A DNA stretch of 51,066 bases from assembly GCA_000992325.1 (NCBI GenBank), contig LBTZ01000022.1, positions 1 to 51,066 of the forward strand, written 5' to 3'. Both the position numbers and the translations under genes were made by a program. The notes beneath the pieces are model-generated. The model searched no databases and had not been told where the DNA came from. It worked only from the letters and a program-made list of their open reading frames with translations. Source of the DNA: Parcubacteria group bacterium GW2011_GWD2_38_11 (lineage in GTDB: Bacteria > Patescibacteriota > Minisyncoccia > Moranbacterales > GWC2-37-73). Positions 9,711 through 45,711 of the stretch are shown here, piece after piece (position 1 is the first letter of the stretch; each line of letters opens with the position of its first letter).

Positions 9711-9815
9711 TTGTATGGCTATTTATTTTTTTGGCACGTTTTTGACCGAAAATCTTGGTCAAAAACTCTTGATTACTGTTGTAATCAACGGCCAAAAAAA
9801 CAAACAGCCATACAA
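9711..9815. other. Three-way-junction inverted-repeat element, copy A
   Basis: P1 9711-9735/9791-9815 (two mismatches), P2 TTTTTGACC/GGTCAAAAA 39-47/57-65, P3 TTGATTAC/GTAATCAA 69-76/81-88 (last digits of 97xx). Junction strings GGC-ACG, CTC and GGCC. Confidence 0.7.
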
Positions 9816-13134: not shown

Positions 13135-13140
13135 GCTTGA

Positions 13141-13226
13141 CCCCGCACTAACTTTTCACAAACGCAAAGCGCCAATTTATAAAATAAAAAATCTATTTAA
13201 GTTAAAAGTGAAAAGTTAGTGCGGGG
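13141..13226. repeat. 19-bp perfect inverted repeat
   Basis: CCCCGCACTAACTTTTCAC (13141-13159) / GTGAAAAGTTAGTGCGGGG (13208-13226). Confidence 0.85.
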
Positions 13227-13301
13227 TTGACAAAATGGCTTAAAATAGCTATACTGTATCGGTTATGGTATAATCATAATATAGATCTTTGAGAGTATAA
13301 T

Positions 13302-43007: not shown

Positions 43008-43526
43008 ATGAAAACTTATATTTGTGAAATTTGTGGGGATGCTTATATTGGAGAAGGGAAGCCGACCAATTGTCCTTTTTGCGGCGCACGCGGGGCTTTT
43101 ATCAGAGAAGGAAAAGACGCTCATCCTGTTGTGGAGGTCAAGGAATCACTTTCTGATCTTACAGTGAAAAATTTGCAAGAAACTTTGCAGCTGGAATTGG
43201 ATGCCAATGCAATTTATTTATGTATGGCAGCGAAAACTGATTCATATGAAATAATGAAGATGTATAAACGTTTGGCAAAGGTTGAAATGGAACACGCGAT
43301 TATTTGCACAAAAATAATGCAAATTACAATGCCGGAAGCTGGCGCAAAAGAATGCAGCGATGATGACATTGCAAATTTCCAAAAAACTCTTGAATTGGAG
43401 GATCATGCTGCAGAGCTGTATGCAAAATTTGCTAAAGAGGCAATTGAAAAGCATGTGAAGATTATGTTTACCGCACTTAATCAAGCGGAAGTTGACCACA
43501 TTGAACTTATAAAGAGTTACTTGTGA
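43008..43526 (+). CDS. Rubrerythrin-like protein (rubredoxin-like plus ferritin-like domain)
   Basis: CEICGDAYIGEGKPTNCPFCG; di-iron helices with EMEHAIIC and EVDHIELI. Confidence 0.88.
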   Translation: MKTYICEICGDAYIGEGKPTNCPFCGARGAFIREGKDAHPVVEVKESLSDLTVKNLQETLQLELDANAIYLCMAAKTDSYEIMKMYKRLAKVEMEHAIICTKIMQITMPEAGAKECSDDDIANFQKTLELEDHAAELYAKFAKEAIEKHVKIMFTALNQAEVDHIELIKSYL

Positions 43527-43681
43527 GAGTCGCTCGATCATCCCCGCCTGCATCGCTATGCGAAGCATTGCGGGCAGGGAAAAACAATTGCAACTTTTGA
43601 CACAACACCAATGAGACTTGTTTTAAGTGACAAAAATAAGAATACGCTCTCGCTCTATTTCATCTCTTTAAAGTCTATCTT

Positions 43682-44425
43682 ATGGAAGTTTGGATTTACA
43701 CAATATTAAGTGTTCTGATTGTTAGTCTCCTTTCTCTTTTGGGATTGGCGGCTTTTCCGTTTGGGGAAGAGAAGATCAAAAAGTTTGTGATTTGGGCGGT
43801 GGCATTTGCTGGTGGAACACTTTTGGGAGATGCATTTTTGCATTTGATTCCTGAGGCATACGAAAATGGATCTGGAGTTGGAATTTCTTTTTCAATTCTG
43901 GGTGGAATTTTGGCGTTTTTCGTTTTGGAAAAATTCATTCACTGGCATCATTGTCATGACATTGCCTGTGAAGAACACAATGAAACTTTTTCCTATGTGA
44001 TTATGATTGGAGATGCTGCGCATAATTTCATTGATGGAATGATCATTGCAGCAAGCTATATGGTCAGTATTCCAATTGGAATCGCCACAACTTTGGCGGT
44101 AATTTTTCATGAAATTCCTCATGAGATTGGAGATTTTGCTTCGATGCTATATGGTGGTTTTTCAAAAGTAAAAGCTCTTTGGTATAATTTTTTGGCAGGA
44201 ATTGTGGCTATTTTTGGGGCGTTGCTAGTTTTGATTATTGGTCAAAATTTTGCTGATTTAACTTATTATCTTATTCCATTTGCGGCTGGTGGTTTTATTT
44301 ATGTGGCTAGCGCTGATATCATTCCTGAACTTCACAAATCAACAAAAATTTCACATTCATTTTTGCAGCTCTTGTTTATTATCGCAGGAATAGTCATAAT
44401 GTATGGGCTTTTAATTTTAGGTTGA
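43682..44425 (+). CDS. ZIP family metal transporter
   Basis: HLIPEAYENG; DAAHNFIDGMIIAASY; VIFHEIPHEIGDFASML. Confidence 0.9.
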   Translation: MEVWIYTILSVLIVSLLSLLGLAAFPFGEEKIKKFVIWAVAFAGGTLLGDAFLHLIPEAYENGSGVGISFSILGGILAFFVLEKFIHWHHCHDIACEEHNETFSYVIMIGDAAHNFIDGMIIAASYMVSIPIGIATTLAVIFHEIPHEIGDFASMLYGGFSKVKALWYNFLAGIVAIFGALLVLIIGQNFADLTYYLIPFAAGGFIYVASADIIPELHKSTKISHSFLQLLFIIAGIVIMYGLLILG

Positions 44426-44457
44426 TTGATTTTTTTAATATGCTGCGATAGTCGTTC

Positions 44458-44555
44458 AACTGTTTTCATTCTTGGCACGCTTTTGGATAAATACTCAATA
44501 TCCAAAAGCTCAAGAAGCCGCTGTCGCCGGCTATTGGCCAAGAATGAAAATAGTT
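44458..44555. other. Three-way-junction inverted-repeat element, copy B
   Basis: P1 44458-44476/44537-44555, P2 CTTTTGGATA/TATCCAAAAG 44480-44489/44499-44508, P3 AGCCG/CGGCT; the same GGC-ACG and CTC junctions as copy A. Confidence 0.7.
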
Positions 44556-44615
44556 TCACTCCATTTCGTATATTTGTACTTTTGTAAAAATTTGTAAGTT
44601 TGTAGCCAATATTGT

Positions 44616-45711
44616 ATGAAAGAAATATTAGACAGTCTTATCGTGATAAAAAATAAGCTCCCGCTTTTGCGGGACTATCTTTGACGTTGCTAATAAAAAG
44701 AAAAAAATTGTAGAACTAGAACAAAAAACCGCAGAGGATGGTTTTTGGAATGACAATCAAAAGGCGGCAAAAATCTCGCAGGAGCTTGAACTCCTCAAAA
44801 ATGAAGTTACGGGGCTTGAAAATATTGAAAAAAAAGTCGCAGAGCTTATTGAACTCATTGGTCTTTTCGAAGACTCTGAAAGTGAGGAAAAAAAAGAAGT
44901 TGAAAAGCAATTTCTTGAACTTGAAAAAGAATTTGATGCATTGGAATTTAAATCATTGTTGGGAGGTGAATATGACAAAAGTGATGTGATTTTGGCAATT
45001 AGGAGTGGTGCTGGCGGAGTGGATGCTCAAGACTGGGCGCAAATGCTTGAAAGGATGTATCTCAAATGGTCAGAAAAAAATGGTTTCAAGGCTGTTATGG
45101 TTGAGGAGACGCGTGGAGCAGAAGCTGGGATTAAAAGCGCGACAATTGAAATTTCCGGAGCTTATGCATATGGTTATTTGCAGAGTGAAGCTGGCGTGCA
45201 TCGATTGGTCAGACTTTCTCCTTTCAACTCTGACAATTTGCGTCAAACATCTTTTGCTATTGTCGAAATTTTGCCAGTAATCGAAGAAATTGCTGAAGTG
45301 ATTATAAGTCCGCAAGATCTTGTGATTGACACATATCGCGCATCAGGCGCTGGCGGACAACACGTGAACACAACAGATAGCGCAGTGCGCATCACGCACA
45401 CGCCAACAGGAGTCGTTGTTACTTGTCAAAGTGAACGTTCTCAGCTTCAAAATAAAGAGCAGGCAATGAAAGTTTTGAAAGCCAGAATTCATCAGCGATA
45501 TTTGGAACAGCAAAAGGCAGAAAAAGAAAAACTGCGCGGCGAATATAAAAGCGCTGAATGGGGAAGTCAAATTCGGTCATACGTTGTTCATCCGTACAAG
45601 ATGGTCAAGGATCATCGCACAAAATTTGAAACTTCTGATGCGGAAAAAGTTCTCGAGGGAGAATTGCAAGGATTTATGGAAAGCTATTTACGTTGGCAGG
45701 CAGGTGCGTAG
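44616..45711 (+). CDS. prfB: Peptide chain release factor 2 with +1 programmed frameshift (in-frame UGA at 44682-44684)
   Basis: MKEILDSLIVIKNKLPLLRDYL-(CTT TGA C)-DVANKKKKIVELEQKTAEDGFWND...; RASGAGGQHVNTTDSAVRITH. The ORF track shows only 44941-45711. Confidence 0.93.

Follow-up and report, generated by a model that had tools for sequence, protein, structure and literature searches.

The palindromic element (copy B) that separates the genes for a ZIP-type transporter and RF2 (prfB) in the window, the whole 51,066-nucleotide stretch of DNA analysed here, is very probably (a probability of about 0.86) a member of a non-autonomous, MITE-like family of mobile DNA of Moranbacteria. Repetition of the element, a conserved structure, empty orthologous sites in relatives, target duplications and restriction to intergenic DNA were all observed directly in this family, and it is because of these family features and the empty sites that copy B itself is considered mobile.

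Fold and component parts of copy B

The first-pass annotation described a three-way-junction element at 44458-44555, and its reality is borne out by folding. The RNA fold of 44440-44575 reaches -52.7 kcal/mol against -25.3 +/- 3.1 for shuffles (z = -8.7; 0/200 shuffles as low), the DNA fold of the copy B region gives z = -8.4, and the inverted arms 44458-44476 / 44537-44555 are complementary at 18/19 positions. The strand between these limits is predicted to fold into a three-way junction (P1/P2/P3) of the form GGC-AC-G(P2)C-T-C(P3)G-GCC, and the arms continue on the far side of a TC/TC internal loop, reaching roughly 44444-44570. The junction strings GGCACG, CTC and GGCC and the 9-nt P2 loop, which had been reported as common to two copies, are present in copy B and recur in copy A (9733-9793). 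The structure as originally drawn is correct in its arms, junction strings and P2 loop, but its P3 omits AAGA (44512-44515) and ATTG (44533-44536), the full helix being C-AA-(GA)-AGCCG-CTGTCGC-CGGCT-(A)-TT-G. The reported distance of about 60 nt to prfB likewise holds, the ATG at 44616 lying 60 nt past the end of P1. Copy B itself has no clear terminal repeat and no clear target duplication. The features referred to below are as follows:

9711..9815, + strand: family member copy A, in the mreB-mreC spacer, with an empty site in G005 (fold and arms; covariance model)
43682..44425, + strand: ZIP-type transporter gene, upstream neighbour
44444..44570, + strand: copy B, the palindromic element to the limit of its traceable arms, ends approximate (fold; covariance-model match 44462-44551, 101 bits)
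44456..44457, + strand: TC of the TC/TC internal loop, 5′ side, with partner TC 44556-44557 (fold; recurs in other copies)
44458..44476, + strand: P1 5′ arm, with the conserved GGC at its end (fold, arm complementarity)
44477..44478, + strand: unpaired AC of the three-way junction (AC columns 16-17 invariant in the 14-copy alignment)
44479..44509, + strand: P2 hairpin, 11 bp with 9-nt loop AATACTCAA (fold; five P2 pairs changed on both sides)
44511..44536, + strand: P3 hairpin with internal loop (fold; three P3 pairs changed on both sides)
44537..44555, + strand: P1 3′ arm, with the conserved GCC at its start (fold, arm complementarity)
44556..44557, + strand: TC of the TC/TC internal loop, 3′ side (fold)
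44616..45711, + strand: prfB (RF2), downstream neighbour, with +1 frameshift site CTTTGAC

Copy number, distribution and ends of the family

The genome to which the window belongs (G000, 0.94 Mb) contains 16 matches to the pattern GGCACGN{22,40}CTCN{14,44}GGCC against a single match for the reversed control; of these matches, 15 proved to be true copies. A covariance model trained on 14 true copies, with copy B left out, still scored copy B at 101 bits, which upholds its description as a repeated element with variable stems and a conserved junction, and the covariance-model search proposed in the first-pass annotation recovered 28 copies (E<1e-4) in this genome. Each of the congeners searched likewise carries 15-34 copies. 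Fourteen of the 58 genomes of the order carry the element by covariance-model search, comprising 6/6 genomes of genus g1 (15-34 copies each), 6/6 tested genomes of genus g7 (14-22 copies), one genome of genus g8 (16 copies) and one of genus g2 (1 copy); it was found in none of the genera g3-g6 or other families among these 58 genomes. A class-wide sample of 293 genomes, searched with stricter filters, yielded no further group carrying the element. Matches to the tip pattern in named genomes fall within Candidatus Moranbacteria / Moraniibacteriota and related bins, and viral contigs are without any match. Matches outside Moranbacteria were attributed to chance, with 17 rescored records reaching at most 20.5 bits and E = 0.005 for one of them. 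The element thus occurs in several genera of one Candidatus Moranbacteria family.

Well-preserved copies end, like MITEs, in terminal inverted repeats, namely GGGTCATACGCAAT..ATTGCGTATGACCC and TAGGACTTACGC..GCGTAACTTCTG, while the copies of genus g7 have GGGTCATACGCAATTTATGG...CCATGTATTGCGTATGACCC in common. The element is also short and without coding capacity, as expected of MITEs, with 127 bp between anchors in most B-type copies and 167-231 bp in T-type copies. When the sequences adjoining the ends were scanned for direct repeats, 12/34 B-type copies proved to have 5-bp duplications, a count for which shuffled pairing predicts 0.76. The T-type copies, with ends GGGTCATACGCAAT/ATTGCGTATGACCC, form 12 entries corresponding to 8 distinct elements, some being read on both strands; three of these eight are flanked by perfect 8-bp duplications (AATTTTAT, GTTAAAAT, CTTTTAAT) and another three by near-perfect 7-bp duplications. 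Target-site duplication, a further MITE trait, is thereby present in the family, exceeding shuffled pairing at both 5 bp and 8 bp and also seen in the filled/empty pair at locus L041, where the element is bordered by 9-bp flanking repeats AATTTTTTT and has an empty counterpart in G005. The same tip is found with two types of end, whose duplications differ in length, and the copy L105 combines B-type arms with an A-like P2. The occurrence of one tip with two kinds of end, together with L105, suggests exchange between subfamilies.

The element is a gene-free near-palindrome, about 130-200 bp in length where both ends are preserved, whose long arms lead to terminal inverted repeats on the outside and hold the conserved three-way-junction tip between them. 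It inserts between genes, duplicating a short AT-rich target, and would probably be mobilised by a DDE-type transposase acting in trans on its ends, since the ends and the target duplications fit such an enzyme. The palindrome may be kept at the DNA level by arm-to-arm copying during replication or by selection of a hairpin or cruciform. Distant pairs of element ends were sought in G005, and the end pattern in G011, G016, G004 and G000, as signs of an autonomous partner, and in each case only pairs ~180-200 bp apart were obtained. The ISL3 transposase (PF01610) was not found in G000-G004, the IS1595 (PF12762) and DDE_Tnp_1 (PF01609) transposases are absent from G000-G005, and a repeated transposase gene was not seen in G005. 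An ISL3-like element of G011 was rejected as a partner, its ends CCCGAAGAACC being unlike those of the element.

Genomic context, empty sites and the prfB locus

All 31 family repeats in G005 are intergenic by simple ORF calls, though 83% of this genome is coding, and the genes adjoining the copies are unrelated to one another. Between tandem genes, copies oriented with and against the genes number 14:3 in G000 and 12:7 in G005 (26:10 combined; p = 0.011; likewise from simple ORF calls), which amounts to a mild sense bias with many antisense copies.

Nearly all of G005 (1.05 Mb) was compared with the copies of G000, G004 and G002. An orthologous site in G005 was compared for 27 G000 entries, two of which are neighbouring or opposite-strand matches of the same loci; the G005 site is filled in five cases, empty or short in ten and occupied by other sequence in twelve. 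Clean filled/empty examples with respect to G005 include L070, L072, L076, L084, L085 and L089 of G004 and L029, L041 and L042 of G000. The mreB-mreC spacer, which harbors copy A, is short in G005, and the element is absent in the compared relatives with a readable spacer. The family thus combines multiple copies with insertion polymorphism, as MITEs do. At position C4:105516 of G005, where the G000 locus L022 is filled, a remnant of the element retains both ends while the entire tip is deleted (AGGATTTACGCATTTTCTCAACTAT/GCGTAACTTCC).

In the congeners G001 and G002 and in G008, ZIP and prfB are separated by a short spacer that lacks the element. In G005 and G003 this spacer is occupied by a different palindrome, with a different tip and similar flanks, for which insertion and tip replacement cannot be told apart. 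A gene other than ZIP precedes prfB in G004 and G010; this gene, which we take from its appearance to encode a GxxExxY-type protein, adjoins AT-rich repeats in both genomes (L154 and L159, respectively). The presence of copy B at prfB is best explained as a lineage-specific insertion. Read-through of copy B would add a stable hairpin to the prfB leader as a side effect, and we agree with the earlier view that a leader role is not general. A small hairpin (TCCCGCTTTTGCGGGA) is also located at 44655-44685 of the window, before the prfB frameshift site, and is conserved in the congeners; E. coli has an internal Shine-Dalgarno at this place.

Covariation, competing explanations and known systems

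In the 14-copy alignment, changes on both sides occur in 15 of the 33 pairs (43 cells versus 13.9 in shuffles, with slid controls collapsing), one-sided changes are nearly absent, and in one pair column a G.U cell is the sole variation. Plain MAFFT misplaced the GGCC between subfamilies, and the alignment was corrected by one N added to short-P3 copies. Across 149 distinct copies and 4676 pair cells, 88.8% are Watson-Crick, with 91 G.T against 149 A.C cells, and in well-paired columns G.T numbers 26 against 67 for A.C; fitting the alignments to the structure biases them to pairs generally but should not raise A.C above G.U. A C.A or A.C position recurs as a mismatch in P1, and the two mismatches of the P2 TC/TC loop are about equally common (columns 23/53 and 25/52, 14 and 15 copies in alignment A5; matching columns, 23 and 23 copies in alignment A6). 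Since G.T is rarer than A.C among the 149 copies, the data do not favour RNA wobble. A repeated palindrome can show covariation that mimics a conserved RNA exactly and yet arises in mobile DNA, and the G.T versus A.C count provides a simple test to distinguish RNA-like from mobile-DNA covariation.

This count weighs upon the proposal that the element is a structured RNA (a leader, 3′ UTR element or small RNA) selected at each locus, including a cis-regulatory leader at prfB. Such an RNA would account for the strong covariation, with double changes in 15 pairs, the mild sense bias among tandem genes (26 versus 10) and the position of copy B 60 nt from the prfB start, yet we consider it very improbable. 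A selected RNA should favour G.U, while G.T is rarer than A.C, and one report (PMC8794818) describes template switching between arms in DNA as creating and maintaining paired arms, so that double changes are possible without RNA selection. Furthermore, close relatives lack the element at the same gene, both orientations relative to genes are in use, the neighbouring genes are unrelated, a promoter-like match near copy B was not found, and Rfam at gathering thresholds gave no match near 44.4-44.6 kb. The RNA role that the first-pass annotation entertained for prfB accordingly gives way to the marks of mobile DNA, namely terminal inverted repeats and target duplications. Copy B follows closely on the ZIP stop codon, which might suggest an ordinary intrinsic terminator for that gene, but this option is disfavoured to the point of being negligible, as a T run is absent after the stem, no terminator-like call was obtained at 44458-44555, the same tip is found at 28 loci, and relatives with the same gene order have no element.

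Parvoviruses possess T-shaped terminal hairpins, which the shape of the element resembles by analogy only. This likeness, the conservation of structure beyond sequence and the recurrence of mismatches at fixed places would suit mobility as folded single-stranded DNA, with the three-way junction as substrate of an HUH/Y1 transposase acting on REP-like hairpins or of attC-like recombination. We regard this as very improbable, given that Y1_Tnp (PF01797), by which a Y1-borne REP/RAYT system would be recognised, was not detected in G000-G004, all of which are copy-rich, and that the target duplications fit staggered DDE cuts and not Y1 or attC chemistry. Counting against the MITE-like reading, an autonomous partner with the ends of the element was not found, and a scheme with one transposase does not explain two end types with unequal duplication lengths and the same tip. 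Because the tip sits between two kinds of end (8-bp and 5-bp duplications), and because a family-2 tip at the prfB site occupies homologous-looking flanks, we tentatively raise the reading, unlikely on balance, that the tip itself is the selected and exchanged unit and may, as a DNA structure, be recognised by a host factor or during transposition, in which case these elements would be modular palindromes with exchangeable tips.

The preferred interpretation, a MITE-like mobile family, places the element beside the bacterial MITEs reviewed in PMC10969869, such as QMITE2 and Chunjie. It shares with these a short (<500 bp), gene-free sequence, many intergenic copies, terminal inverted repeats, target duplications in younger copies and transcripts that would fold into stable stems. 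It differs in being palindromic over nearly its full length, in its conserved three-way-junction tip, in bearing one tip with two kinds of end, and in that a related insertion sequence was not found. A conserved three-way-junction tip common to elements with different ends is unusual for a MITE-like element. The enterobacterial ERIC / RU repeats (127 bp; PMC2759123) are likewise intergenic imperfect palindromes and MITE-like small mobile sequences. They belong, however, to another phylum than the Moranbacteria element, and were compared with it by description. To our knowledge, the junction GGC-AC-G..C-T-C..G-GCC has not been described for ERIC. The REP sequences with their RAYT transposases (PMC3733652, PMC2817692) are also dispersed extragenic palindromes, but are 20-40 bp in size and tied to Y1 transposases, whereas the Moranbacteria element has target duplications. 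A description of MITEs in CPR or Moranbacteria was not found in the open-access literature searched. The family is an example of small transposons that are active in the compact genomes of Patescibacteria. Its natural insertion polymorphisms and structural tip offer testable material.

Other small palindromes are inserted within the P2 loop or P3 of the element at L101, L102, L103 and L131, and nested palindromes, for example CCTGCCTACCGGCAGGCAGG and the 56-nt CCCCGTCAAATCC..GGGGCGAG, show that small palindromes sit inside one another. In the window, the interval between the RNase P RNA and a penicillin-binding-type gene includes, at 13140-13227, a perfect 20-bp inverted repeat (ACCCCGCACTAACTTTTCAC) with a 48-nt spacer. 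A second family of palindromes (family 2) is represented at 43526-43655 by a copy with tip CAATTGCAACTTTTGACAnAACnCCAATGAGACTTG, whose 5′ arm seems to be broken by a GC-rich palindrome, CCCGCCTGCATCGC..GCATTGCGGGCAGGG. G005 has about 12 family-2 copies, of which two occupy sites whose orthologues carry copies of the family described here (family 1).
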